Part shown: piece by piece, positions 1,339-61,838 of the stretch | How the letters are laid out: each line of letters opens with the position of its first letter | Position numbering within the stretch: the stretch's first letter is position 1 | Source of the DNA: Ephemerocybe angulata | Taxonomy: Eukaryota; Basidiomycota; Agaricomycetes; Agaricales; Psathyrellaceae | Assembly (NCBI GenBank): GCA_013368325.1 | Contig: JAACJK010000220.1 | Location: forward strand, 496,001 to 560,000 | Direction of reading: 5' to 3' | DNA length: 64,000 nt | The notes under the pieces: model-generated | Databases searched by the model: none | What the model saw: the letters and a program-made list of their open reading frames with translations, nothing else | Told to the model about the DNA's origin: nothing | Made by a program: the position numbers and the translations under genes

Positions 1339-3040
1339 ATGGACTTTGTGCGTCGTACTCTCTCCCTATACTGCTCAGAAGCTGACAAAATGTCTAGTTT
1401 AACAATCCCAACGGCCCAGGGGGTTTGCTTGCCCAATTCGCGGGGTATGTGCCACCAGCCACCCTCATTGCACTGAATGTAACGTTGACGCCGACTGCAG
1501 AGGATTCCAACAGGGATTCGGGCCCCAGATGGGAAGAGCGAATCCAAGGTCCTATGACGAATACATGAAGGCTTACAGCGTGGCCATGCTTCCCGGTCGG
1601 CAGAGAGACAACTTGTCCTACGGTGGCAAGAGTACGTCCCATCCTACGATCTTGCACTTCAAAATCTCATGTCCCTTCCAGTCATCATGCCACCATCTGC
1701 CCTTGCGCGACTCACGCAGCTCGATCTCGAGTCTCCATGGTCTTTCCAGCTGCGGAATCCCTCCAATCCGGCTGCTTCGACACATGCTGGTGTCCTCGAG
1801 TTCATTGCTGAGGAAGGCGTGGTACACTTGCCATACTGGATGATGAAGACTCTGCGGCTTAATGAGGGCGATCCCATCCGCATCACAGGAACCGAGCTCC
1901 CCAAAGGAAAGTTTGTCAAACTCCAAGCCCAGTCTGTGCTCTTCTTGGAGATCTCGGACCCCAAAGCTGTGTGAGCACCCTGTTTACAGCATTCAGAGTT
2001 CCTGGAGCTAATTAATCCTTGTGAAGGCTTGAGCAAGCGCTGAGAAACTTCTCGGCGCTGACACAGGGTGATATCATTGAAATCTCCTATAATTCGATGG
2101 TGTTTGGTCTCCTGGTAATGGAAACGAAACCAGGAGGCGAAGGAATTAGCGTGCTCGATACTGACTTGGAAGTTGACTTCGCCGCTCCTGTCGGATATGT
2201 TGAGCCTGAGCGACCGAAGCCCGCAGCTCCCGTTACGATGGCTTCGAAGCTCAAGATTGACCTTGACTCGCAGTCCCCGGGGTCATCAAGACCAGGCTCC
2301 TCCCTGAGCGGCGGGTTCGCGGGTCAAAGTACTGGCCAGACCAATCTCAGTAAGGATGGTGACCATTGGGAAAGCTTCAAAGGGAAGGGAGAAACGCTCG
2401 GTGGGCGGAAGACCAAAGGAAAGGGTATCAGCCACAGAAAGGCTGAGCAGGTGCCTGAAGGAAGTAAAATCATTCGCACAGAGTGAGTTGTATATCCGAT
2501 GGTAGAATCCGAGACAGTCCTGACAATCGTATAGGAACCGGAAGATCGTGTCTAACGACACCCTCGAAACTGGTGCCAAAGTGCCAGCTGCATTGAACCT
2601 GCCATTTGGGCAGTTGTTCTTTGGGTTTAACATAACACCGTACCAACCCCCGGCCGCTGCACCAGGTTCACCAGAAACAACACCCCAGGTACTATTGGTC
2701 TTCACCTCCCTATACTCGACCAGTGCTAATCGTTTCTCAGTCTCCGCAGCCCTTCGCCAGTGCTGGGAATACCCTGACCGGCAGGTCAACGCAACCTTCC
2801 TCTTCCAAGCCAAAAGAGGAAAAGCCTGCGGAGGAAGCCAAACCAGCACATACATGGGGAACATCTGGACACACGCTTGGATCTCGGTCTGCTCCCCGCA
2901 GCAATGGCCCACTAGGGGCCGGTGGCGCACGGGCTCCTCAAGTTCCTCAACGGAAGAACAAACAGCCTGTGAAGGAGAGGAGCCCAACGCCAGACTTCGG
3001 CGTCGACGACGACGAAATCATCGATATCGACAGCGATTAA
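1339..3040 (+). CDS. UFD1: UFD1, ubiquitin-binding cofactor of Cdc48/p97
   Basis: UFD1 pairs with NPL4 to bring ubiquitylated substrates to the Cdc48 unfoldase for ERAD and chromatin extraction. The first exon is only three codons (MDF), followed by a 50-base intron (1348-1397, branch CTGAC) and the exon FNNPNGPGGLLAQF. The double-psi barrel N domain shows PRSYDEYMKAYSVAML, IIMPPSALARLTQLD and EGVVHLPYWMM, then GDIIEISYNSMVFGLLV. The C-terminal part, which binds Cdc48 and Npl4 in the family, is rich in Pro, Ser and Lys and ends in an acidic DDDEIIDIDSD tail. The last two introns lie near 2486-2535 and 2688-2742. The product is longer than the 361-residue yeast protein because of the C-terminal part. 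The call is secure; the mini first exon is inferred. Confidence 0.92.
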
Positions 3041-3225
3041 AAAGATATCGTGCGCAATCCTTAGATTTATCCATGTTCCCGTTGCATACTGTCTGCTGCT
3101 ATCCCCCCTGACGAAAGATCCCCGATGTGATGTAACTCATCCTAGCTTGAATTTCTCGACCGTGCATTGTACATATCGATTATAACGTGTATATCAGTTC
3201 TTGTCATTGAGCACCCCGCCAGTGT

Positions 3226-5292
3226 TCAAAGCATAACAACCCCAATTCCTTTCCCAGGGGATTGTCCGTTCTCGCCGTTCATCCCGGCCAGTTTATCCGT
3301 TCTCCAGTTGTAGAGGTAGAAGTTGAGGAAGCCATCGCCGACACCGAACTGCAGCAGCATTGTCATTAGACAAGTGGTTAATGGGGAGATGGTCGTTTCG
3401 CACTCACCTTCAGATCATCCAAAACTGGAACATTGTCCATCAAAGTAAGAGCATTGAAGACATCGAAGGCAGCCTCGTTCGCAACAATGAGGGCGTCACC
3501 GATGAGAGATGTCAGCCTCTGCTTCAACTGTCCACTGATCTCCGCTTCCGGCTCGAATGCTGTTTCCGTGGCATAGTAATAAAGGTAGGCAGCCTCCAGG
3601 GTCCCGTACTTGGTATCATTGATGATGGTGGAGGGCAAAGAGTAAAACGAGAAGAAGTCGGTAACCTTGTGAGTTTTGGGATCCTGTATAGTGGGCTTGT
3701 TTGCGATCACGAAAATCACTGAGCAATGTTTAAACGCACCTCGACAACATATGACCATGTCACCTGCCCTGACCTCCTCCCTTTCCCTCCATCACCAACT
3801 TTTCCCGTTCCACTTCCACTCAGGAAGTTGTGCTTTACCTCTTCGATGTTCATGATTGGTACCATGTCAAACCGCTGCATATACCGTTTGAACAGATCTC
3901 CAACCTGAGAAATATCCTTCTCCTGCATTTCCCTTATTCCGGGAAGAGTGGTCTTGGGCTCGACTTTGTTTATGCGGATCATCCGGGCAAGCGTCATGTT
4001 TCGGGGCACGAAAGAGAACTTGGTCTCGACCAGCTTGGGAATGTTGAGAGAGCGATGATAGTACCTGCAAACGGAGACAGGTGTGGGTATCACAACACCA
4101 GCGGTGTATATGGCTTGGAAGATGCCTTTGAGGTGACATTGGCGCGTCACCTCCTTGATAAGGACGGGAGCAAGACGTTTGGAGCGCAGTTTCTTGTGCA
4201 CGCAGAGGTAGTTGATCTCACTGACGGGGATGACACTGAGGTTACGGTCCAATGAGAATTATTGGGCATTGGAAAGGTAAAGAAACAGATAGGGGCGTAC
4301 TTCTGGCGTACTCGTAGCATCATAGGAACACCGGAGATGAAGGCGATAAGTTTCTTGTTCGAGGACATCCTGACACCAAGGTGCCACTCCTTGTGGTACC
4401 CTGGAGGAGTAAGAGCCCTATAGAATATTGTTTAGAGCCGGTGCTGCGTTTAGTATTGAACCCTTACCATGCCAAAAATTCTGCGCTGTAATCGAATCTG
4501 AATGCGGCATAGTCGTCCTCCACATAGTTCCTGGAAAGCAGGTCATAGACTTCTTTTGTCTAGGAGGCATTTAGTTACCTCTTCGCGACTATAGAACATA
4601 GAGAAGGGTCACACCTGGGCAGGATCTTTGATATCTAGTGTTGACCACTCGTAACCATTTGGTAGGCCATAAGGCGTCTGGCGAACCTGGTCCACTGGCA
4701 GGGAGGGTTCAATGTACCCGTCGTCCAGCGGAGGACCTTCGCCTACGGTAAAGTAAGTACCAAGCGCTATAGTAAGTGTTATTTCTGAATTCGCACCAAT
4801 CTTGGGAACCGGTTGTGTCGCCCAGAACTGGAAACGAATTTGGTCAGGAGATGAGTTGTGCACTCCATGAGCGCGTCGCACCTTATGTTCGCCCATATCT
4901 TTGGCATTGATACCGCCAATCCCAGCACGTCCCTTGACCACGTCCAGGATCCTCATTTCTTCTAATGCCTTTCGAATGTTCTCCGCAGTCAACTCCTCCG
5001 GGCTGAGAGTTCCCTGAGTGCGAATTTGCTCCATGACCTCCTCGACTACCTCCTGGGGGAGTTCCTCATCCTTTGCATCACCCTTCAGCTTGTTGAAAAG
5101 CTTAGATGCTTTGGATTTCTTCTTTTTCTTCTTCTTAGATGTGGTCCCGTCGGTAGGCACATCGGTACTAGGGTTGTCTAGATCCTGTTCAGGATCGGAT
5201 AACTCGCTTTCGTGATCGGAGTCGATGGCGGTGGTGGCATCGATAATCGCGCCCTCAGTCGATGTACTCGCGATTTTGCTCTCGGAGGACAT
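3226..5292 (-). CDS. NMT1: glycylpeptide N-tetradecanoyltransferase (N-myristoyltransferase)
   Basis: The enzyme moves myristate from myristoyl-CoA to N-terminal glycine of proteins such as Arf GTPases and G-alpha subunits. The N-terminus is acidic and then holds a poly-lysine block (about residues 50-60), which in this family helps ribosome association. The acyl-CoA site motif [20 protein letters not shown] is present, as are [13 protein letters not shown] and, at the C-terminus, [17 protein letters not shown]. The protein ends GIGVVML, matching the conserved C-terminal carboxylate that serves as catalytic base. The start at 5292 (MSSESK) suits the family; an in-frame reading continues upstream to 5355 but without family likeness. 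About six short introns interrupt the gene. It is tail-to-tail with UFD1 (185 bases apart). Confidence 0.94.
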
Positions 5293-5583
5293 CGCGTCGT
5301 ACAAGTGATTGGTGGGGAAGAAGAACGATGTTGGTGGAGTCCAAGTAGCGCCCAATCAAAGCACCCCTCGAGGCTTCCAATCCAAGAGAGGCTCGAGATG
5401 ATGTCAATTGTCAAGTTGCCGGAACTGCGTCATCTACACATGGAAAGGTCGTTACAATTATTGTCGTAGCTCTTATACTATCGTTCAGAATGTCTCTTGA
5501 GCTTGAGTACTTCAGCAAATCGCATAATTTACTGAGATCCAGGAAGGAAATTGGAATAAACGCAACCCATCCACTGTGCCAGA

Positions 5584-6885
5584 CTAGTAAGGGACGCGAT
5601 GCAAGATCCCCACCACACAGAGACTTTCTCTCTGACTTTTCTGACCATCCGTAGTGAAACCTTTAAATCGTGTATATCCCCCCAAAAGGTCAACACGTCG
5701 AATGAGGCCCTCGTCCCGCACGGACCAGAACGATCCCGCCAGTCGAGATCGTTCTTGACTCGCCTCCAGCACTTGATGATATATGCCCGTATCCCGGATG
5801 TAGTCAAGCTCTCCACTGTTCAAGGGTTCGTGCCAGTAGTTGTGCAAGACCAATAACACATTCTCCACGGTTAGAGGCCAGTCGCGAGCTCTTGCGGTGG
5901 GGGTGCGCCAGCCGGTTATCCAGGGTCCTGAGCCAAGGCTTGCGTATTGCAGAGCGTCGATAGCTGCGTATGCGCAGAAGCTTCGGATTTCCGAGTTGTT
6001 GCAAGGCTGGACGTCCATTTTCAACCTTGAGTAACGCGACAGTGTTGCATTGTCATTTGCACACATACTCCGCTGCATGCCATCCGCGTGAGTGCCAAAG
6101 GAAGCGGCTGAGAGAGGTAATCTAATGTCCCAATCGATGTCAACCAGGTCGGCGTGTAGCGGTCTTTCGTCTGTTGCAAAGCGGTCGGCCAAGTTTGATC
6201 CACCAATGGGCTCCCTTGCACGCCTAAGTGCGGATCGCGCCCGTACTCCCCTGACGCTCCTAGGAGAAGTTTCAGGCGGGTCAGGAAGTAAGAGTGGCGG
6301 AATGAAAGGAGAAGGCGATTTTCGAGGACTTGGACTGTTGTAAGATAGATTACACGGTCCCAATGGTACTGGCATGTGCCCTGGGGTTCTATGAGGAGAG
6401 GGTGACCACTGCCCAAGACCCAACGGTTCAGTCCTGTGGATTGGAGTGGCGTTCGCCAATGGCTGCCGACTACTGGAGTAGGGGCTAGCGAGCGGTGTCC
6501 ATTGCGCAGCTGCCTGTGGTGTGTGCGGTGCCGGGGTGCACGGGGCACACTGCGCTCCAATATGGTGAAAATGGGTACTATGGGGTGCCTTGGAGGGCGA
6601 GGGTGTTGCAGGTAACGGAGAGGCATATCCAGGTAGCGGCGTAGCGTAGGAAGGTAGGGGAGTGGCGTAAGCAGATCGCGGAGTGGTGTAGCAATTAGCT
6701 GAAGAAGTAGAATTAGAGCCTTATAGTACAGGAGATATGGTACGCAGTATGTCACTCACATGGTGTCCACCAATGGTTATGGTAATGATTCATGTCTATT
6801 CGTCAAAAGTTAGTCGGGTCAAAGAATGGGAGGGATAATCTAGCTCACAGTAAGTGCGAGGTGAGCTTTTCCCCCAGAAAGGCAT
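5584..6885 (-). CDS. DUF6699 protein with proline-rich N-terminus (copy A)
   Basis: DUF6699 proteins are common in mushroom-forming fungi and have no known function. I read a three-exon start: MPFWGKSSPRTY (6849-6885), then a 36-base exon (6760-6795) coding for an Asn/His/Trp-rich stretch, then the long exon from 6719 down. The introns would be 6796-6848 (53 bases) and 6720-6759 (40 bases). The next ~150 residues are low complexity, rich in Pro, Ser and Thr. The DUF6699 domain follows: DLVDIDWDIRLPLS, WPLTVENVLLVLHNYWHEPL and VDLLGGYTRFKGF near the end. The extreme C-terminus after RFKGF may be altered by an unseen intron. A diverged relative lies just upstream on the same strand. Function is unknown. 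Confidence 0.72.
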
Positions 6886-35961: not shown

Positions 35962-36589
35962 GCTCCCTGCTGTTTGTCCCATGCACATCCTGTGGGTGCG
36001 GTTGGTCTGTTTCGTGCTATGTCACTCGCTCCTTGTTCTTTGTTTTCCAGTCCTAACATGTATTATCTTCTGCCCTGACACATTCTTTTCAACGTTTTGC
36101 TCGTGTTATATTATGGACTAGGCACTCTTTTCAGAAAGGCTCGTGTCATGTATCGAGCACGTTTACACCACAAATGACGGTTCGCTATCTATGCATTTGC
36201 ATTTCGTTCTGACTGATTGGTATCGTGGTATCCAAGGAGGAAACACCAGCGAAAAGAAAAACCCACATCTTGGGAACAAAAGCATATCCGACTATCTCCA
36301 TCGGACATACTCCCTTCACCATCTTCTGGATGGATCAGTAAGTGTGACTTTTGTTAACCGTGGTGTGTACACGGGGCTACGCCCTGTCTGAGGGGTCGAG
36401 AATCATCACGATGTCTCTGGTTCGGTACAGCCCAGCGGAAGGCTACGGTCAGGTTCGTGGACGCTGCCGGCTTCGTGTTCGCTCTGTTACGGGGGTACAA
36501 CCATTGCGAGGTCCATACGGATTTGTCATCTCCCAGTCATTGGGGTTACACCAGGCATGAGGCATGCTGGGATGTACGTCGGAACTGTG

Positions 36590-36672
36590 TTCGGCGACGG
36601 AATCGAACTCGCGATCTTTTGGATCGGGTTGTTGTGAGTGCGGCGCGCGCAACTCCACTCCACCACTCTGGG
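36590..36672 (-). pseudogene. tRNA-like sequence or tRNA-derived repeat (decayed)
   Basis: On the minus strand a B-box-like GAGTTCGATTCC (36599-36610) follows a GATC-TTTTG-GATC hairpin resembling a long variable arm and an A-box-like GTGGAGTGGAGTTGCG. The T stem and acceptor stem do not pair properly, so this is unlikely to be a working tRNA. It could be a decayed leucine/serine-type tRNA or the head of a tRNA-derived SINE. Confidence 0.35.
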
Positions 36673-37336
36673 TGTAATTATTGTCTGGTACACTTGCTCT
36701 ACGTCTCGTAGATCTCGTAGGCCAAGGATGGCCAAAGATTCGGCGGTGTCCACTGTATACAGACTCGGATAATGCAGGAATATATCTGTTATACGATTTA
36801 TCCTCGAGTACTCATCCATCGCTTGGGAGTCACATACAGTGCCGTCGTGGTGGAAAAGGAAAGCCAACCCAAATTGAACCCAAACCGGCGCATCAGTCAC
36901 AGTCACAAGTGATCTACCTCCCTGTCACAAACCCGACAGTCGATTTCTGCTAGCCACCGTCACCGTGGATCAGTTCGCATTCTCTCAACCAGAACTCCCG
37001 GAAAAAGTCATGGACACCAACGCGTCTGCGGCTTCTCAGTCGTGCCAAAATGGACCTGCCTCCCAATCCCTTCCTGTGATTTTGCCCTTCTGTCAATGGC
37101 ACCTGGGAATCAGGATGACCTTAGGCCACTTTCTTGACCTATAACTTAGAACTTAGAAGAAGCCTCCAAAAACACGCTCACGGACCGTGGACGTCTTGCC
37201 TCTGTGTCCAGCATCGTTTCATCGACATGCGCTCTCATCCGTTGCCCGGCCCCCGACGGGCGCTCCATGTTGATGGGAACATCGATATCTGGGGGACGAG
37301 GGTTGCAGTGTGCCCGATGCTACTCTCTTCCCCACC

Positions 37337-37380
37337 CGAGTCCAAGTGTGTTCTCGAGTCCAGGTGTGTTCTCAAGTCCT
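37337..37380. repeat. 18-base tandem repeat, about 2.4 copies
   Basis: GAGTCCAAGTGTGTTCTC (37337-37354) is followed by GAGTCCAGGTGTGTTCTC (37355-37372) with one change, and then by a partial third unit. It lies in the gene-free stretch before the membrane-protein gene. Confidence 0.85.
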
Positions 37381-37768
37381 GACTCTCCTACGTAGTGTAA
37401 AAACCTGATTTCAGTTGTCCTATTTTGCTCTGGTACTCAACAGATTTATCCGTTGCTTGATGGCAGAAAATCTGGTGATCTGTAAATCACACCACTGCTA
37501 TCAGTCCATGCCGACACAGGGGTCAAGCGCCAAGTGCCCATGAATGTCGGAGGGGTCTCTCCGCCATCGAATTGGTCCGGGTGTAGACCAATTTCATCAT
37601 GATGGGCGACTTTGCGCTCTTGACACCCACACCCAACCCACACCCACACTCTTTTTCTACTCTCTCCTTGTCGACGACGGTTGCTCGAGCGACAGCGCGC
37701 TGGCGGCGTACTTATCAGCTCCTTACACTCCCTTGTACAATCCCGACAAAAGCTAACTACGCACCGGG

Positions 37769-39408
37769 ATGGCTGGAACTCGCTGGGTGCTGGTGGACGA
37801 CAAAGACGCGGGGATCTCTTATTCAGGTTCTTGGTTTGAGAATAGCGACGGCTTCACTGTCGGGAACTGGGGATCACCGTGGGGTGGCTCTCAACATGGA
37901 TTGAACGGGACTGGAAGCTTCTCTTACACATTCTCAGGTGCGCCCGTAAGATTTATTTGCCAAGTTGCTCCACTCTCACCACCGACTGCGCACACGATAG
38001 GAACACGGATTCGAGTGCTCGGAACGAGCGCCGTACAGTCGTCCTCAAGCGGCACAGACCCGAGTTGGAAATGCATGGTGGGGGACTCGGATATACCAAC
38101 CAGTAATCCATGGACAACCCAGATCAACAATTGGCCATTATGTGAAAGTCCAGAGTTCGTCCCCGGTCAACATACCTTCACCCTCAACACCGTCTCCCAA
38201 AAAGCAACCTTCTGGTTCGATCAGATCCGCTACCTCCCCCTCGCCAACATGAATTCGACATTGACGGGCGCTGTCTCCGTTGTCGTTGAACACTCCGATC
38301 CCGCCGTTACTTACACCTCAGGGAGCTGGCAAGATCTTACGACGAACGCTAAGGTGACCTCTCAAGCGGGCTCGGTCATGACAATCAAATTCACAGGTAT
38401 GTTTACTGAACGCCGAAGCTCTTACATTTCGGAAGACTTGACACAGACATCGCAGGGACAAAACTCACCTGGGTCGGGTGGACACCAATTGGATACCCCA
38501 CTGGGACCTCACAAGGCACTTATTCGATCGATGATGGACCTGCGACCACCTTCGAGATTAAAGGCTCAGAATCCGACACCTCCAACCTATATAACCAACT
38601 TCTCTTCGAAACACCAGTCCTATCGCTAGGAAAGGAACACACACTGACTGTGACGCACAACGGACCATCAGCTCCCCTCACCATCGACTATGTTATCATC
38701 GCAAATGGCGACATTATCCTCCCAGACGGGGGATCCAGCTCTTCCGAAGGACTGGACGCCTCTTCCGCCGCCGGTGCCAAGAGCGGCAGTAAGCCACCAT
38801 TACCTCTGATCATCGGAGCCTCTGTGGGCGGCGTCGCATTCATTTTGCTTTGCATATTCGGCTACATCCTCTTCATTCGTTGGAGAAGACGGAGACAAAC
38901 ACTCAAGAGAATCACGCTGGACCCATCGACCATGGCTCACCTCCCTCCACCCATAGCCCAAATAACGCCCTTCACGTATACCAACCGGAGTAACTCCGCG
39001 ATGCATATGTCCAGCCAAACAAACCTGACCCAGGCCTCCCAAACACCGGCGGGATGGTCCCCACCGATGACAACAACCAACGGCTATGCTGCGCTAGAGG
39101 GGAGCAGACCTTTCTCACAAACCTCACCATTCACTCCTCTGAGACGGGACCAGAAGAACCGCAACGGTGACTCGGAGCATTCCATCCCTCTCCAATCGTT
39201 CAGTACCAACCCTCCACCCGCACCCTACAGCGACATCAGCTCCTCTTCGAACACCACACCAAGCATTCGCTCGAGTGCGAAATCGGGGCCCGTCGTTGCT
39301 ACACCGCCCAGCCGGCAAGTGCATCATGAGGACAGTGGGATTCGCCTCACCGCTTCCGAGCCTCCACTCGTTGACATTCTGCCACCGCCTTCGTATACGC
39401 CTTCATGA
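37769..39408 (+). CDS. single-pass membrane protein with two extracellular jelly-roll-like repeats
   Basis: This belongs to a large basidiomycete group of type III membrane proteins of unknown role. The start MAGTRWVLVDDKDAGISYSG has no signal peptide. The extracellular part has two related units: WVLVDDKDAGISYSGSW ... FSYTFSGTRIRVLGT and, further on, VSVVVEHSDPAVTYTSGSW ... IKFTGTKLTWVGWTP, each with the pattern D-P/A-x-I/V-x-Y and a W-rich strand, typical of galactose-binding-like folds. One membrane helix follows (PLPLIIGASVGGVAFILLCI) with a basic stop (RWRRRRQ), then a ~160-residue Ser/Pro/Thr-rich cytosolic tail. Introns: about 37938-38000 (TCAG/gtgcgc..gatag) and about 38398-38456. Function is not known; a cell-wall sensor or adhesion role would be a guess. 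Confidence 0.75.
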
Positions 39409-39689
39409 TAAAAAATACAGACGCAATCGTCCCGTTTTCAATTCCATACCACTCCTTCGCTCCACCCACTCTTGCTGTGTTTATCTCGCTTTAAGTTTAA
39501 CGGACTCACGACTACGCTCAGAGAGTATTGTACTACTTTAGCACCCCGGTTATTCTGTCTGTACCTTCCTGTAATTGGCCTGTGGCCCCTCTCTCTAGCA
39601 TTATACACACCTCTAAAGGCTTTGAGCCGCTTTCGATTCGACGATGTAGCCCTATAGTTCCAATCTAGCTACCACAATGTTACCACCAA

Positions 39690-40295
39690 CTACAACGGAA
39701 TCTTATCCAGGATCTTCCACCCCTCCACAGGCCCGACACACTCAGCAAGCCACACCTCCGCCGCCTCCCATCCATCCACCCACTCGCCCGCACACAGCAG
39801 CGCGACCCTCCTCTTGCCCCATTCGTACCCTTCCCTCACCTTCCCCGCCTCCCTAAGCGCCCTCTCAAACTTCGCCCTCTCCCCCTTCTCCGCATCCTCG
39901 TCAGCGACATACGCCACTGAGCAGTGGGGGAACGCAGGTGTCCTGGGCTGCACTCCCAGACTCGCATGAAACTTCTCGTGCAACGCTGCGAGCTCTGGGG
40001 AATGCTCGACCGCGACGTAGACCGAGCGGAAGTAGTGCTCGCCAACAACCAAAGATGCGAACTTTATAAGCAGATTGGGGTTTCCTGGCTCGGCTTGTCC
40101 TTTTGGAAGCGAGGTTTGGAGGGCAGCTCGTATATCACTGAGGCTGAAGTTGTTTGGGACGCTCGCAAGCGTAATGTGCGGTTCGAAGTTTGGGTACGAG
40201 GATGCGGAGAGGGTGCTCGTATCGTGCTGGGGCCGCATGACCGTTCTGAGCTTTTCTCGGTCCGAAGAGCTGGGGAGGATCCAGATCGCGACCAT
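39690..40295 (-). CDS. 2',3'-cyclic-nucleotide 3'-phosphodiesterase, CPD1-type 2H enzyme
   Basis: Yeast Cpd1 opens ADP-ribose 1'',2''-cyclic phosphate, a by-product of tRNA splicing. This intronless 201-residue protein begins at ATG 40295 (MVAIWILPSSSDREKLRTVM), the family's usual opening. The two 2H motifs are FEPHITLAS (HxT) and FPHCSVAYVAD (HxS), about 90 residues apart, and the spacing and size match the CPDase family. The frame stays open upstream to 40343 without an ATG. It is convergent with the membrane-protein gene. Confidence 0.87.
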   Translation of the reverse strand: MVAIWILPSSSDREKLRTVMRPQHDTSTLSASSYPNFEPHITLASVPNNFSLSDIRAALQTSLPKGQAEPGNPNLLIKFASLVVGEHYFRSVYVAVEHSPELAALHEKFHASLGVQPRTPAFPHCSVAYVADEDAEKGERAKFERALREAGKVREGYEWGKRRVALLCAGEWVDGWEAAEVWLAECVGPVEGWKILDKIPL

Positions 40296-40597
40296 GTTAC
40301 TGTAGCAGTGGGTGTTGTGGTAAGAAACGAACCACGACTTCACGGTCTAGATAACGGTGATATCAGAACGGGGTTAAACCAAACAGGCGCTTCAAAGCTT
40401 CACCCCCGAACCGTGCGCGTCAAATAAACGAAAGGAAATTAATTACAATTGCAACAGAAATGGATGGGGTTGTTGTTGATATAATATACATTGTTACATT
40501 TAACACAGCAAAGGGGATAGGCGGAGTAGGGGTCGAGTTCAGAGGATAACGAAAGAAAACGTTCAGCGATACCATAGTATACAAGAAAGGAAAGCGT
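40296..40597. other. spacer between CPD1-type and DUF1776 genes
   Basis: A 302-base spacer between same-strand genes, holding the CPD1-type promoter and the DUF1776 3' end. AT-rich sequence at 40430-40510 fits a poly(A) region. Nothing else is visible. Confidence 0.45.
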
Positions 40598-42621
40598 CTA
40601 GGATGCCACACCACCCTCCGACGGCGCGCGATGCTCGAGGTTAATCCAACTGCTGTCGACGCTCGCATTCGAAGAGATCTGAGGAGATGACTCGTCAGTG
40701 TCGGGCTCTGACTTGGTCTCAACCTCGTCCTGGATGACTTCCTCTTCCTCTTCCGCCACTTCCTCGACAGCGACGGGAGGCTGGGGCCTCTCCTCGGGGG
40801 CAGCAGCGATAGCACGCTGGACACCCTCCTGGCGGGCTTGGGGAGGTCGATCAGTCGAGCGGGATGACCTGGGAGAAGGAAGATTGCGGGGAGGGATGCG
40901 GTGAGGCTGGATTGGCAGCAGCTTGTTCCTCAGTCCGATCAAGAAGTAGGGAAGATTGAGAAGGCCGTCGAGGAGAAGTGAGGGCAGGTACGAGGCGAGC
41001 TTATAAGTGTTCGCTACCGCAACGTCAGCACCCACGACTTCATTCTGAGAAACGCAGATACATACCTCCTGCACCAACCGAGACCCTGTCGCCATGCACC
41101 CAGTTCATAACAATCCCCAAACCAAGATTATGCCCGAACACAGTCGGTCCATGACGACCCTCACTGACAATCCCAACAACTTTCTTCACAAACGCGCTCA
41201 TCTTTGCCGGCCTCCTTCCAACAGCATAATGCCTCTTCTCGCTGAACAGCGCCAAGAAACCCTTCCACTTGCCCAGCTCTGCAACCTGCTGCGCCTCCTG
41301 CGACACGCTTGCAAACGCTGGGCCATAGATCAGCTTTTCCGAGCTGGTCCAGCTCTCGGTCGCTTTCAGCACGTTGGCCCTGTTGCTTTCCGCTGCCGCA
41401 GCAGCAGCCTTGCCAAGATCGATGCTGCCCACATCGACCGTGACGACCCTGATGCTCTTCATCGAGTCCGTCTTGCCCGTCACAGCGGCCATCGCGATCT
41501 CGCGTCTCAGAATCTCCACAGCCTTGAGGGTCCCCGCCGCGCTCATCGCCTGCACGGCACTAAACGGCAGTGCGACGTGCGTGTCGACGGCCGGGAGACA
41601 GACCACAATCGACTTCTTGCCCTTGTCGACGCTGCGCGCGGAGCCCGTGCGGAGGAGCGGAAGCAGCTGCTGGATGACCTGCAGAGGGCTGATTTGCGTG
41701 GCGTAGAGGTACGGGAGATAGTCCTGCTCCATTGAGAGGTGTTCCAGCGGCCCAAGGGTGGGCGAGGTGGCGGCAGCAGCGGGAAGGGTGAGGAGGGATA
41801 CGACGGACTGGATGTATGGCTGGGATGCGGGGGAAGAGTAGGGGTCTCCAGATGTTTTCAGAGGGAACTTGCGCGAAAGGGTTGAGGAGAGAGACCTCAA
41901 GAACACTGGAACTGTTGCAGGCTGAGATGAAAGTTAGTGTACATGTTATAGGCTGGTTCGGGGAAGTCGCACCTCTCGGGGATTGAGGACCAGGGCCTTG
42001 ACATACCCTTTCGTCTTGCTCTCCAAAGCAACGACGGCCTCGGGGGTAGACACAGATGCAATTACAATATATCCCTTGCTTTCAAGATCCCGAATGAGAG
42101 GAAGGCCATATGGCGTGTCTCCGCCAAGCACCACTACAACTCAGACATATCGATAAGAGCCCGTTCGCCCACAACCCAAGAGCGCACTCACCGACAACCT
42201 GTCTCCTCTCCCTCTCACCCGATTGGGCAGACGCTGCCTTGTGCGTCACAGACCTTGCTGGCGGCCTGCCGTTGAATGCATGGCGGTACCCGATGAGCAA
42301 CCCTGTACCGACGACACCGACCACGACCCCAGAGGCCTTCTTCGGGTTATCGTGGGCCCAATTGGCCAGGGAGTTCACAAACGAGGAAGGTGGTGCCTTT
42401 GGCGGTGGAGGCGGGGGCGGTGGGACTTGGAAATCTCCAAGAGACGGGATGTGGACCTCAGGGAAGGCGGGCATCCCTGGGCCATAGCGCGAGATATCAA
42501 TCCATAACCGATTCGCGACTTCGTTGACGTCTGGGAGACCGCCGGTTACTGCAGTGACTGAGGCGTAAAAGTAATTCTCGACAGAGTGGAGATATCCCTC
42601 TATCGTTTCGCGGGAGGACAT
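40598..42621 (-). CDS. DUF1776 family protein (SDR-like Rossmann fold)
   Basis: This fungal family has no known function. The start at 42621 gives MSSRETIEGYLHSVENYFYA. A Pro-only run (QVPPPPPPPPKAPP) precedes a hydrophobic, possibly membrane, segment (ASGVVVGVVGTGLLIGYRHA). The Rossmann-like part begins VVVLGGDTPYGLPLIRDLES, a GGxxxxG dinucleotide-binding pattern as in short-chain dehydrogenases, though the YxxxK pair was not located. It continues through KSIVVCLPAVDTHVALPFSA and SIRVVTVDVGSIDLG. After an intron near 41040 the tail has SYLPSLLLDGLLNLPYFLIG and then a Glu-rich acidic end. Introns lie near 41005-41070, 41905-41975 and 42130-42195. The membrane segment suggests an organelle or ER location; this is inference. 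Confidence 0.75.
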
Positions 42622-56117: not shown

Positions 56118-56125
56118 GTCGGGTC
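56118..56125. repeat. left target-site duplication
   Basis: GTCGGGTC here is repeated exactly at 61831-61838, in the same orientation. Eight bases is the duplication length known for KDZ/Zisupton transposons. Confidence 0.8.
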
Positions 56126-56193
56126 CAGAATATCGCGTGTATCGGAGTGTAAGTCCAAGGTCCAGGTCCGAGGTCCAAGTCCGAGGTCCGAGC
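56126..56193 (+). repeat. left terminal inverted repeat
   Basis: The outer 16 bases CAGAATATCGCGTGTA match the right end (GAGGACATCGGAGGTA, minus strand) at 10 of 16 positions. The inner part starts AAGTCCAAGGTCCAGGTCCG and is a run of GGTCC-type units ending GGTCCGAGC at 56193, matching the right end with one gap and a few changes. Confidence 0.85.
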
Positions 56194-56338
56194 ACAACAA
56201 AAGTGCTATTGTTATGAACAATGGCCAATGGCCAGCTTTGTTTGGTCTCTAGGCGGCCATTCGACGGTCACTACGTAGCGTACTTGAGCCTTTTTGTCAT
56301 TCCGTCGCCAGTGGAAACCATCTCCTCCTCCTTGGCCC

Positions 56339-56346
56339 TATAAATA
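56339..56346 (+). promoter_or_regulatory. TATA box of the transposase-like gene
   Basis: TATAAATA lies 40 bases before the ATG at 56386, a fitting place for a core promoter with a very short leader. It lies inside the element, so the gene brings its own promoter. Confidence 0.65.
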
Positions 56347-56385
56347 CAGGTATTTTATCATTGCTAGTGCACAACATTTGCACCC

Positions 56386-58639
56386 ATGACCAGTATTTCT
56401 ATCCCGACTCTTCTATCGGCTCTTGATGAGCACGTCGATCTCCTTCACGATGTTACTTTGAGTGACATTGTGTCTTTTGTTGACATCTGTTGCTTACTGC
56501 GACCTACCCTGGACCTGCCATCCCTACATTCGACTCACTCTGGCAGTGAAGCATTGGAACGGTTACCCATATATGCCCACGACTTCTTGAAGGCCTGCCT
56601 AGGGTGGGATGATAATCAGAGCGACTCGCTGAAGGCTCTGTGGTATGCATTCAAGGATACGGTTTGGGCAATGGAGTACAGCTATGAGCTGACTCGTAAA
56701 TTGGGAGGGAAGTATCTCCCCCTGTTTGTGAAGTACGGGCCATCACGAGGCATAGGTACGTTACATCCGTTCTTTGATCTTCATAACCCATAATTGTTGA
56801 CGCACCTTGATACTAGCAATGTACCACTTTGTACCACCCACAAGAACATGCCTAGACCCAGCATGCCGTGATTACTTGCGCACCAACCATTCCGTTGGGC
56901 GAGAGCGGCAGTTGGTCGATGGGATCACCTATCCCGTCGTCGTCTTCACGCAAGAGTTTGGAGCAGTGCCGGGACACTGCACATCGCTATATTGCAACCA
57001 CTGCAAGACCCGGTACTACAACAACTATTATATCACAGGGGGCACACGAACGTACTACGTGGGAGACATCCCTCCCTTCCTACACACAGCAGAGAAGACG
57101 TTTATGGACATTAGGACTTGTGAGCTTTTTTCGACGATGATGGTTACCACATGGTACGTTGCATCTACGGTTGAACCAAATACACTTCTCACAATATTGC
57201 TAGGGTCTCTGCAACAAATTGTGCCAGAATATACAACGACGGCATTAGCAAGGATCTGTACGAGCACTCGCTGCTCTCAAGCACGGCAAAAAGCACAATC
57301 CTAGATGTCGAGACTGTTTGGAACAGTCTCTTCCTTTATTGGCTGGTTCAGGACGCACAGTTACGCAACGTAGTGTTTGAGTACCCCGACTCAGCCGATG
57401 ATCAAGCCCTTCGCCTCAAGCCTGCACTCCGAGCTAGAAATGAACGTATTGCAGGCCCTGGTCAACCCGAATGGAATCACGTCTGTGATCTCTGCTGTGC
57501 AGTTGAAGAGGTCCCTGGAACAGATGATCTATGTACGTACGGCTGCTCGACACTTGAAGTCACAGATCATGGCTAAATATTTGCTCTTTATTCTGCAGCA
57601 TACATTCGCTCTGTCATAGTTGACGGTGTTACAGTCGGGCGACCATGCTGTGGTGTTCATGACTGCATGAACGAGCTCGAGTCGGTGAAGGATCACTATT
57701 GTCAAGATCCCGAGCACCAAAAGCTAGCCAACAAGTGTGCAGTTATTGTCTGCAAGGCCCAACGTGAGTCAGGATATCGCACCTGTGGTGATCCTGATCA
57801 TCGAGCCCTCGATACATGGGCCAACATGCACGCGAAAGCCATGTTTCAGCTTCGCCAACGTCTCGAGCGGATCAATGCAACCCAAGCTGTGGATCTCGAA
57901 GGGGAAGGGGGCTCTGAGCCTGCAGACAACCCACAGGGCTCTACGCACCTCTCTGATGAAGCTATAGATGTCGATGAATCTGGTATTTGTGATTCAGACA
58001 AACCAGAGACAGGAAACCGTACCTTACGTGCACAGTTTGGCCGCAAGCGCACGCATAATGAGGAGTTGTGCGTTGCCTCATGTGGGGTCATCCTGGGACG
58101 GGCAACATTCTATGGCTCTGAGGCACCAAATGGTGTACGAGTAAGTCGACTATTTATATTTTGCCAATCGGAGCTGACCGAGCAACCAGACTTTCCTTAT
58201 GTACCTATTCCCGACACAAGAATCCCTACCACAAGTTATCTGGCATGATAACAACTGCAAGATTCGGGCTATGCTCGAAAACGACGATGATCCCTATTTT
58301 CGTGACTACTTCAAGAGATGTGCTCTGCCTGTTGACGTATTTCACTTCAACTGCAAGCACAAGGAAAGCGACATCATGTGCCAGAAATATTGCAATCCGT
58401 ACAGCTGGGAGCAGCTCAGGGTCGATGGGAAATGGCGGTTCAATTCATCAGCCGCCGAGCAGGCTAACGTCTGGTTTGGGAGTGCGCAGCCAATGGTGCG
58501 AGAGATGCAAGCCGTGCGGTATGATTTCTTCCTCGATGAGATGATCATTCGCAGGAATAAATACACCGTTTCAGAGTTGAAGCGGAAGGGAAAGTCGCCA
58601 CTTAACATTCCTCGTCACTTGCTTCTTGGCACTGACTAA
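56386..58639 (+). CDS. KDZ transposase-like protein with CxC5 and CxC6 cysteine clusters
   Basis: I join five exons. The first gives MTSISIPTLLSALDEHVDLL up to RGI; after an intron (about 56756-56817) the CxC5-like zinc cluster follows (TCLDPACRDYLR ... GHCTSLYCNHCKTRYYNNYY). The CxC6-like cluster is HVCDLCCAVEEV, then after an intron SVIVDGVTVGRPCCGVHDC and DHYCQDPEH. The C-terminal part resembles the RNase H-like KDZ core: ASCGVILGRATFYGSEAPNG, VIWHDNNCK (acidic residue), LPVDVFHFNCKHKESD and WRFNSSAAEQANVWFG, with a Glu in the expected last catalytic place, then YDFFLDEMIIRRNK. Further introns: about 57155-57204, 57532-57598, 58142-58190. The reading is complete, from ATG to stop. The assignment of catalytic residues is inferred from pattern only. 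Confidence 0.8.
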
Positions 58640-58703
58640 TTTCTAACTCGAGAGTCCATGTATTAGTAGATTGTATATATTATAGTTGATCTCTAAGTTT
58701 GAT

Positions 58704-61502
58704 TCAATCCTCCTCATCGGAATCTAATATAACGATGACTTCTGAGCTCTGGGGCATTTCCACTATGTCCAAGCTCTCGGATTTGATGTGCACTTTGTCC
58801 TTGGATGCAGGTTTCGAAGACGATGGTTGCGCCGGCAGTTTGATATTTGCATTTGAGGGCAATGGGTGCATGTTGACACCAAATGCCCGGCTTTCCCGCA
58901 GAGTATCGATGGCGCTGTCTGGGGATATGTCGAGGTCCTCTGCTATAAGCATGACAAATAGCTCAGGCAGAAGTACCCCTTCTATCAACGCAAGCCAAGA
59001 GAGGGGTGCATAGAGCTCTGGGTCAACCGTGTCCTCTGGAAACATGTGCTGCAGCGCGAGAGTAGCGATCATAAACCCACGTTCACCAAAGCTGTCATAA
59101 ATATGAATAATCAGTATGGTGGAGTCACAACAAACCGAGGAAAGCACATACTATCCAGCACCCTGTTCTGAAAAAACAGTAGAGCCATTTGAGCGTGCAG
59201 TCCGACCTGATCCAGTTGCAATAGCCGACCGTGCAAGTTGGAAGAACTCGCTATCTTGCGCAAATTCCAGCAGCTCCGTGAGTGTGTCTTTCTGATCTTT
59301 GATACGAGATTCGAGGCGAGTAAAGTCGGGTTTCGTTGGCCAGCCCCTTTCGATGGCCTTGGGAATTTCCTCACGCTCAAACTTGTGCCTCTCACAGAAA
59401 GCAATGAAGACCGTGAACCCCCCAGGCGCCGATCGATGGTGCGGGTTCCCAGGGATTGGGTCTGGACGAGTCCTTGGAGTCAAATCCTCGAGCATCGAGG
59501 TAAGCGTCACACTCATAGGACCCTCCGGAAGAGGTTCGTCACAGAAGGGGCAGAGGTCGGTATCATTGTTCTCTTCGTCGCTGGAGGAACTATCGAGCTC
59601 GTCGAAATTGAGCTCGGCAATTTCGGACTCAGATGAATCTGACGAGGACAGCTCAAGCGAAGGGGAGCGTGCACGCTGTCGCTGCCGGTTTTGCTTCTGA
59701 GGTGGAGGTGTTAGTTTGACCTCCACTCCCCGCCGCGCACGCATAAAGTTGGAAAAGAGGCCGCGTGTTGTGTGTCGATACCCGATGAATTCTTCGCGGA
59801 GAGACTTCGAAGTCTTATGCCATTCTTTCTTGTGGTTGCAGAAGGTGCTCTTTGCGTAAGTGACGGAACCGAAGACCTCATTGAAGGCAGCACTCTGCAT
59901 TTTACCTGCCGCGCACATCTCTTCAATACGACGAAGCCCGTCGTAGATATCGCATGTGTAGAACGACCCCGGCCAGACAGGAGCACCGGTGTGAGGGGCG
60001 GGCTGCAGTTTGACGGTTGCAGAAGTGGGTGACACTGAGGAATGAGTCGGCTCTGGCTTTGGTGGCAAGTCCTTCAGAAATGGCGCAGGCTTCGGCTTCG
60101 GAACTCGGTTTGCAGCTGCCGTTTCGGGCACAAGGGCAAGACGGGTGGTGGATTGAGGCTCCTGATGTGACACCAACCCCGTAGGTTCAAGAGAGGTGAG
60201 AGAAGACTCGGACTCTTGGCGTGATGCAGTCGCGTTCAAGACAGACATTGTGCGCGCAACCTTGTTCAAGGGCGAGACGAGCTCATGAGCCGCACGCTTA
60301 TGGGTGTTTGGACGGCGGCTGGGCTGACGTGCAATTTCATCAGCCACTCCAGGGCAATCCTCGTCCTTCAGCCTATTCAGAATATCACGGCGCAAGCGAA
60401 TGAGTAGTCGTGTGTCGACATCGACATTAAGAACATTGCTCATATCTACCGTCTTCCAGCGCCCGTCTTCATACACATCAAGGTACATATGGTCTGTCAT
60501 CCCCGGAAGCGACTGGAAGATGGGAATTGATTTGAGCTGCACGGTGGGGTATGTCTCGATGTATGTCTCGAGCTCGAGTGGATCATCGCCGGCCTACATG
60601 TAAGTTAGTATTATATAGATGACTGAACAGCATGCATATACGCACCGTATGCCAAATTACGAACACGACGGTTCTACGACGGATGTCCTTCGCTTTTTGC
60701 TGCATGACCTTCAACGAGCTCGCTGTATCTGTCTCCTGATGCGCTCGTTTATATACTGCAGTCCAAGAGAGGGGCTGCGCAAGTGAGGCCCGAGGTACAG
60801 GTGCTTGCGACGGTCCTGCTTGAGAGGGAAGGGGTGCAATGACCGGGTTAACCTGTGTCGCCGTTATCTGTGTTGCTGGGATCGGTGCGACTGCATTAAC
60901 AGGGGTAGAACTCGGTCGTGCTGCTGCTGGAGGCTGGGACGAGGTACGGGCAACTAATTTATTCATTCCCGGGTGTATCTGGCACTTGCTCCGTGCTGTT
61001 CCATCCGCACTCGCTTTCATGAAGGCTGCCTTGCAGCATTTGCGGCACATATTCTCGACGCAGTTCTGATTTCCAGCAGTACGAGTGCCCTTTGCTGTAT
61101 AGCATTGGGCGTTAGAGCACGAGACACCCCTCCGAGTATCTTGAGTTGCTGATGGTGGTGAAGGAGGGGGTGCTGGACGAAGGCGGCCCTGGTTTCCGAG
61201 GTCTGGGTTGAGGAGTCGCTCAAGGAGGGAATGTGCGTCCTCCATGAGATACGGAGGTGTGTGCATCTTCGTCCAAAAGCAGCTGGGGCACTGGTATAGA
61301 AACATGAGATGTGAATGACGGATGGAGCAACAGAAGGGCGCACCGTTTGGCAAATCGACCCGCGATTTGCTTTATTCTTCTCCGAACCGCGCCCGAGGTA
61401 CACGCGCAAACCGTCCATCGGTTTGCCGCACTCAGACTTGACGCAAGTGGTGAGGGGGATGACGATAGGGTCTTGGGAAAGCTGTGGTTCGTCCATCTGC
61501 AT
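58704..61502 (-). CDS. transposon-borne cysteine-rich protein with C-terminal RTC4-like domain
   Basis: From ATG 61502 (MQMDEPQLSQDPIVIPLTTC) the N-terminus holds zinc-type pairs (CVKSECGKPMDG, then across an intron ICQTCPSCFW). A second cluster follows: GVSCSNAQCYTAKG, NCVENMCRKCCKAAF and SKCQIHPGM. A long linker rich in Pro, Ser and Gln leads to a domain with CPFCDEPLPEGPMSVTLTSM, FTVFIAFCERHKFEREEIPK, AIERGWPTKPDFTRLESRIK and, after an intron at about 59098-59152, GAGYFGERGFMIATLALQH; these match the RTC4-like domain. It ends with an acidic SDEED tail and a SUMO-motif-like VIVILDSD. The start is uncertain: TATATATA at about 61548 suits 61502, but an ATG at 61649 with a good GTAAGT donor is possible. 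Role unknown; its place in the element suggests DNA or chromatin binding. Confidence 0.68.
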
Positions 61503-61763
61503 GAGCTTCTTGTTGAATGCCGTCCAAACGAGGGGAGACTCACCAGTATATATACTCGGACCCAAGTGCTTTGTGTCGCTTATCTCCCAATGGGCAAAGC
61601 ACAAGATACATGAACTTACCAGCGTGGACAGTCTAGCGTGAAAGGGCATCGGTCGTTCATGGGCAAAGCGTCATATATTGTGTTTCGTGCTTTGACGATG
61701 GTGTAGAAGACAAAGGGCCAACGATAGGAACGAAAACGAAGCCAACGGCGACAAACTTACCAC

Positions 61764-61830
61764 GCTCGGACCAAGGACCCGGACCTCGGACCTGGACCCG
61801 GACTTGGCTCCTTGTACCTCCGATGTCCTC
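61764..61830 (-). repeat. right terminal inverted repeat
   Basis: Read on the minus strand, it starts GAGGACATCGGAGGTACAAG and continues AAGTCCGGGTCCAGGTCCGA to GGTCCGAGC at 61764. The inner 42 bases match the 43 of the left repeat with one gap and few changes. Confidence 0.85.
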
Positions 61831-61838
61831 GTCGGGTC
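61831..61838. repeat. right target-site duplication
   Basis: GTCGGGTC, identical to the copy at 56118-56125, directly follows the right inverted repeat. Confidence 0.8.

Follow-up and report, generated by a model that had tools for sequence, protein, structure and literature searches.

A complete DNA transposon of Ephemerocybe angulata pairing a CxC5/CxC6 gene with a convergent RTC4-bearing gene

The element at the locus, its ends and its copies

The window considered here, a stretch of 64,000 nucleotides from the basidiomycete Ephemerocybe angulata (contig JAACJK010000220.1, positions 496,001 to 560,000), contains a complete DNA transposon of 5,705 base pairs (bp; window positions 56126-61830) lying between exact 8-bp duplications. 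It carries a gene for a protein with the CxC5 and CxC6 cysteine clusters (gene 1) and a gene for a partner protein that ends in an RTC4 (restriction of telomere capping 4) domain (gene 2). The two genes converge, with 64 bases separating the ends of their stop codons. The genome assembly of this species (58.7 Mb, 232 contigs) was searched for related elements; C120 denotes the window's own element and the other C-numbers denote contigs or copies in the same assembly. The features of the element are the following.

56118..56125, no strand: left 8-bp target-site duplication GTCGGGTC; the match to the second copy starts at the next base inward
56126..56193, + strand: left inverted terminus on the gene-1 side, outermost bases CAGAATAT, with GTCC-type subterminal repeats; the same terminus occurs in C98, C13, C22, C128a and C192
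56386..58639, + strand: gene 1, CxC5/CxC6 protein, predicted DDE transposase of 675 amino acids; exons 56386-56755, 56817-57153, 57204-57532, 57599-58140 and 58190-58639
57622..57624, + strand: codon of Asp354, proposed first catalytic residue, on the first strand of the predicted core
58247..58249, + strand: codon of Asp546, proposed second catalytic residue
58457..58459, + strand: codon of Glu616, proposed third catalytic residue
58704..61502, - strand: gene 2, partner protein, model of 877 amino acids; exons 61502-61344, 61290-60646, 60593-59152 and 59091-58704
58863..59552, - strand: module within gene 2, most likely captured, consisting of a CPFCD motif and the RTC4 domain (PF14474, 5.8e-12), split by an intron common to another RTC4 gene
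61764..61830, - strand: right inverted terminus on the gene-2 side, outermost bases GAGGACAT read inward, compared across copies
61831..61838, no strand: right 8-bp target-site duplication GTCGGGTC; the right end of C98 matches only from the next base inward

The original prediction, made from the bases of the window alone, had described exact 8-base direct repeats, inverted termini of about 67 bases and two convergent multi-exon genes without breaks. The repeats were indeed found at 56118-56125 and 61831-61838, and the genes hold at the level of their reading frames: the five exons of gene 1 splice to 675 codons plus a stop, and the four of gene 2 encode 877 amino acids. Both are annotated as hypothetical proteins in public records. 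Gene 1 is equal in length to the public protein P0002, which stems from a separate record of this species, and differs from it in 13 of 675 residues; the entire gene 2 model lies, at 100% identity, within the public protein D9611_004805 (P0001, 926 amino acids), which has 49 additional N-terminal residues. Among the 9,087 pairs of identical 8-mers that lie 2-10 kb apart within the window, the GTCGGGTC pair ranks first when the 67 bases next to each member are compared in inverted orientation (score 30, runner-up 21). The inverted repeats are imperfect, with 35 nucleotides matching at 89% (56159-56193 against 61764-61798) and a looser outer part. Terminal inverted repeats, as in DDE cut-and-paste transposons, are thus present.

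Further copies with the same ends, which the original prediction had named as its check, do occur in the genome. The closest, C98 (C98:318500-326700), begins and ends at bases identical to those of the window element and is flanked by another exact 8-mer, which reads CTCTGCTG on the contig and CAGCAGAG in the orientation of the element, so that the predicted ends prove right to the base. Its gene 2 is free of stops across the codons that were compared (876 of 878); its gene 1 is damaged, with ~260 bp missing relative to the window copy and a stop. Its identity to the window element is 96.4% over element positions 1940-5705 and 91.0% over positions 1-1679; the gene-1 half is more divergent than the remainder, as if the copy were a mosaic. 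A third, more distant copy, C13 (5,674 bp), has the same ends and its own duplication. The same holds for two short derivatives without genes, C22 (728 bp) and C128a (735 bp); C192 (726 bp) represents the C22 insertion in duplicate. With identities of 82% and 88% to the respective ends of C13, the C22 type is regarded as an internally deleted form. For C114 the left end is present, and no matching 8-mer was found at the right end in the DNA read.

A family of two-gene elements and its empty sites

The arrangement seen in the window recurs elsewhere in the genome. Pfam searches yielded 25 CxC6 rows and 40 CxC5 rows, corresponding to at least 26 separate loci. We examined the DNA around 20 of these, one of which (C67) holds fragments of both genes only, and found a convergent partner gene of the family of gene 2 at 18, although nine of these loci had served as seeds of the partner profile. 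Because a homologous partner adjoins nearly all of these CxC5/CxC6 genes, and because the trees of gene 1 and of the partner gene largely agree, gene 2 can be considered to belong to the element, and the two-gene unit is, as judged from sequence comparison, a family trait in the E. angulata genome. Departures from this pattern occur. A divergent CxC5/CxC6 lineage at C219:144500-150500, with very similar matches in several contigs, shows no partner gene over the 6 kb of DNA read. At C128:684500-694400 a partner-like gene (helical domain, 2e-12) stands alone, with no gene 1 detected across 9.9 kb; it may be a remnant or have been domesticated.

Exact 8-bp duplications flank all 16 elements tabulated, which represent 15 distinct insertions (C120, C98, C13, C22, C128a, C86, C28, C11, C179, C216, C128b, C18, C202, C124 and C134), as C192 duplicates C22; the length of the duplication is constant. 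Ten of these rows (C86, C28, C11 and the elements without RTC4) were selected on condition that an exact 8-mer be present; exactness was thus built into the search, and what these rows contribute is the likeness of the ends. Where the ends were fixed by similarity first, an exact duplication was found in five of six cases. C38 was excluded from the count since its ends are unclear despite an exact 8-mer pair, and paired ends were not found for C114, C139, C152, C69 and C147 in the DNA read. A candidate end at position 9377 of L016 was rejected because it falls inside the gene-2 reading frame, and longer DNA gave the ends. The termini of the family are CAGAA- or similar at one end (CAAAG- in C11) and GAG- at the other. 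In C120, C98, C13, C86 and C28 the CAG end is the one next to gene 1, and in C11 and the RTC4-free elements it is the GAG end, which implies that the gene pair was once turned round relative to the ends. The copies C86 and C28 (10.9 and 12.4 kb) are ~94-99.7% alike in long matching pieces and carry tandem 50-bp units in an internal array; the pieces of gene 2 in C28 are additionally separated by ~3.2 kb.

Empty sites were searched for in the genome with joined flanks (100 + 100 bases around a single 8-mer) from 12 of the 15 distinct insertions, all but C86, C28 and C11. Sites spanning the junction were found for three, all relatives of the window element: that of C179 on C67 (100% over 200 bases), those of C124 on C44 and C43 (100%) and C150 (86%), and that of C134 on C107 (93%). 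The matches to the C18 junction (71% only) were read as gene-family members instead of an empty site. No empty site was found in the genome for C120, C98, C13, C22, C128a, C216, C128b or C202. The empty sites with a single 8-mer foreseen by the original prediction therefore exist for relatives but not for the window element itself. Insertion is shown at the sequence level for the former, and for the window element it follows from the comparison of the two copies C120 and C98. The copies with the same ends and their own duplications, together with these empty sites, uphold the earlier proposal of a complete element that moves as one unit with both genes.

Elsewhere in the window, positions 38001-40000 show a strong negative GC skew (-0.263), and a tandem-repeat scan of 36001-42000 gave one short 18-bp array only.

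The two proteins and the RTC4 module

Gene 1 matches the Pfam families CxC5 (4.2e-32) and CxC6 (1.1e-21) and no other at E <= 1, and both models also match all of its 62 aligned homologues. In total, the homologues of gene 1 number 259. The AlphaFold2 model of P0002, which is 98% identical to gene 1, has a predicted local distance difference test (pLDDT) score of 87 and contains a predicted RNase H-like core with a DDE triad. DDE enzymes occupy all 50 rows shown in the VIA-align comparison of this model, with ISCth4 in the top row. These rows are a second look at the list produced by Foldseek, which itself gave a best E of 0.13 for gene 1, and the absence of Kyakuja-Dileera-Zisupton (KDZ) or Mutator-like element (MULE) structures among the 50 excludes nothing. 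Asp354, Asp546 and Glu616 are nearly invariant in the 62 homologues and, given their positions in the model, may form the catalytic triad. We infer that gene 1 itself encodes the predicted DDE transposase of the element. A codon comparison of its last exon gave synonymous changes in 11 codons and non-synonymous ones in 3, out of 150.

The architecture of the gene-2 protein would comprise N-terminal cysteine clusters, a ubiquitin-like domain with a predicted beta-grasp fold and a helical domain, followed by the RTC4 domain, the sole Pfam domain above cut-off in the partner proteins. A GRF-like Pfam model remained below its cut-off of 27 bits on the partner N-termini (best row in two of five, at 18.2 and 19.5 bits), and no GRF row was obtained for the N-terminus of the window protein. 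The VIA-align rows for the gene-2 model cover mainly residues 307-399, so the helical domain and the RTC4 part were hardly probed for their fold. A sequence search of the PDB with P0001 gave no matches at E <= 1, and protein searches for homologues in other species returned only its own record, one of them being swamped by common words and the other limited to residues 694-885.

The RTC4 domain itself is clearly recognized in gene 2 (46.3 bits against a cut-off of 23.7). Eight places in the genome encode it, and seven of these (C120, C98, C13, C86, C28, C11 and C139) adjoin a convergent CxC6 gene. The copy at C139 (C139:96600-106500) also adjoins a retrotransposon frame with reverse-transcriptase RNase H, integrase and chromo domains; for this copy no ends were located. 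In the tree of gene 1 the seven loci cluster with C69, which is without a partner gene (97/95), or by themselves once C69 is omitted (96/94), and the distribution of RTC4 on this tree is explained by one change. Partner proteins outside this clade lack RTC4. The domain is thus, on the evidence of the trees, an add-on of one gene-1 clade. This modifies the original prediction that the RTC4-like protein is part of the transposition machinery: gene 2 does belong to the element, but its RTC4 part cannot be general machinery because it is confined to one clade and the partners of other families do without it.

At the eighth place, C154, the 9.9 kb read contain no gene 1, and the locus looks like a cellular gene. 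Its module is 33% identical to that of the window over 227 columns, and an intron is found at the same position and phase, within one tyrosine codon (TA|C), in all five genes compared (C154, C120, C13, C11 and C139). Since this intron is common to the sole other RTC4 place found in the genome, the module was most likely captured by one element lineage as genomic DNA, intron included, from a cellular gene, the direction of transfer presumably being from cell to transposon. RTC4 proteins came to notice through a screen in budding yeast, and their presumed role is to oppose some aspects of the DNA damage response; a rust fungus has been reported to possess 45 of them, compared with 15 in a relative (excerpts of PMC9370660).

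Interpretation and comparison with known systems

Taken together, we consider it likely (probability roughly 0.78) that the window element is autonomous, a cut-and-paste DNA transposon whose two convergent genes encode a zinc-binding DDE transposase and a partner, the RTC4 domain of the latter having been captured from a cellular gene. The ends, duplications, copies, empty sites of relatives, gene pairing, restriction of RTC4 to one clade and shared intron are read from the sequence; the DDE and beta-grasp folds are predicted, and catalysis, the role of the partner, the direction of capture and the role of RTC4 are inferred. The CxC6 cluster of the transposase would interrupt its core after the first strand. 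The enzyme would cut at the CAG... / GAG... ends and insert with an 8-bp stagger. The gene-2 protein may assist transposition, probably by binding the subterminal repeats or assembling the transposase, and its RTC4 module, taken with its intron, would probably tether the complex to chromatin or damp the host damage response at the cut ends.

That the locus is an ordinary one, with two unrelated host genes flanked by a chance repeat, is extremely improbable. Nothing beyond the hypothetical-protein annotation of both genes speaks for it, and it is contradicted by C98 with identical ends and another duplication, by the empty sites of relatives and by the top rank of the repeat among the 8-mer pairs; C98 and this ranking rule out a chance repeat. 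It seems also rather unlikely that gene 2 is a passenger, i.e., cargo that an ancestor once acquired from its host and that is retained for its own benefit rather than as part of the transposition machinery. Transposon cargo is usually patchy in distribution, whereas members of the gene 2 family are present at almost all loci examined and their tree largely matches that of gene 1, and only the RTC4 module is limited to one clade. In favour of a passenger are the related gene standing alone at C128:689 kb, with no gene 1 within 9.9 kb, the stop-free gene 2 of C98 despite its damaged gene 1, and the capture of TET/JBP genes by other fungal transposons (described in part of PMC12730594).

More serious is the possibility that the element belongs to the KDZ superfamily as a divergent member, its core being missed by current profiles; we regard this as doubtful. 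Pfam names CxC5 and CxC6 as clusters associated with KDZ transposases, Zisupton likewise makes 8-bp duplications (PMC12730594, in part), and hhalign comparison with 14 KDZ fragments gave a weak collinear match (P 0.039 and 0.067; probability 1.3% and 0.8%, with shallow profiles) that pairs D546 and E616 with Asp and Glu conserved in KDZ proteins. However, the KDZ catalytic domain PF18758, with 171 matches elsewhere in this genome, is absent from gene 1 and from all 62 homologues even at E <= 10, bearing in mind that HMMER filters drop most matches above 0.1, and the full-length comparison of the gene-1 profile with 9 KDZ fragments gave a probability of 0.8%, again with shallow profiles. Kyakuja makes 7-bp duplications and has CA..TG termini without inverted repeats (PMC12730594, in part), whereas the window family has 8-bp duplications, CAG / GAG termini and inverted repeats. 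Intact KDZ elements of Pleurotus are preceded by CxC2 and never by CxC5/CxC6, according to a portion of PMC7641404. The label "KDZ-type" given by the original prediction is not supported by these results.

A broader view can be put forward tentatively: the CxC5/CxC6 proteins of mushrooms would be the transposases of a separate two-gene DDE superfamily, whose movement requires a fast-evolving partner with a ubiquitin-like, DIX-like assembly domain, and one lineage of which captured a host RTC4 telomere/DNA-damage module to choose or survive insertion sites. This view would also account for the sporeless oyster mushroom, in which a 6,792-bp insert disrupts poMSH4; the insert is multicopy and encodes a 739-amino-acid CxC5/CxC6 protein, and its authors, noting no KDZ element nearby, proposed a link with a Copia retrotransposon (PMC7641404, in part). 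The LoopB primer of the MSH4 set, in the left flank of the insert (Table 2 of PMC12568894, in excerpt), contains the reverse complement of CAGATATACAG, which falls one base short of CAGAATATACAG, the terminus of C179 and C202. This likeness to the CAG terminus is suggestive only, and the 6.8-kb insert may be of the same kind as the window element. If the broader view holds, a large group of mushroom proteins annotated as KDZ-associated would turn out to be the transposase of a defined element, a testable explanation would be at hand for the mutation underlying sporelessness in commercial oyster mushrooms, and a defined set of ends would be usable for annotating mushroom genomes. The 100% identical empty sites of two relatives point to recent movement, and the RTC4 module would be an example of a host domain taken up by a transposon along with its intron.

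Among known systems, MuDR of maize has two convergent genes, for a transposase and a helper, and thereby resembles the window element; its duplication is 9 bp, against 8 bp here. No MULE transposase domain was found in gene 1, CxC5 and CxC6 alone matching at E <= 1; ISCth4 we take to belong to the IS256 family, which is related to Mutator. PIF/Harbinger (Nuwa) transposons likewise combine a transposase with a separate partner, but this is a DNA-binding Myb/SANT protein and the duplications are 3 bp (PMC12730594, in part), whereas RTC4 is the only Pfam domain to exceed its cut-off in the window partner. With KDZ elements the window element shares the 8-bp duplication of Zisupton and zinc clusters beside a DDE-type core; it differs in the lack of a PF18758 match, the weak profile similarity and termini other than those of Kyakuja. 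In fishes the Zisupton CxC7 domain is joined to F-boxes, and the excerpted text of PMC12062965 does not mention CxC5/CxC6. Gene 1 is a full member of both Pfam clusters, named as KDZ-associated, yet carries a predicted DDE core of its own, with ends, 8-bp duplications and a second gene now defined. The matches listed for KDZ, CxC5/CxC6, RTC4 and sporeless Pleurotus, mostly excerpts, include no description of a two-gene CxC5/CxC6 element of this make-up. The poMSH4 insert is alike in its CxC5/CxC6 protein, its multiple copies and its interruption of a gene; inverted ends, a target duplication and a second gene are not described in the excerpts of PMC7641404, and the insert is known here from publications and not from its sequence. 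With RTC4 proteins, finally, gene 2 shares a C-terminal module homologous to the C154 gene, but differs in that RTC4 is fused to a transposon partner protein and is mobile.

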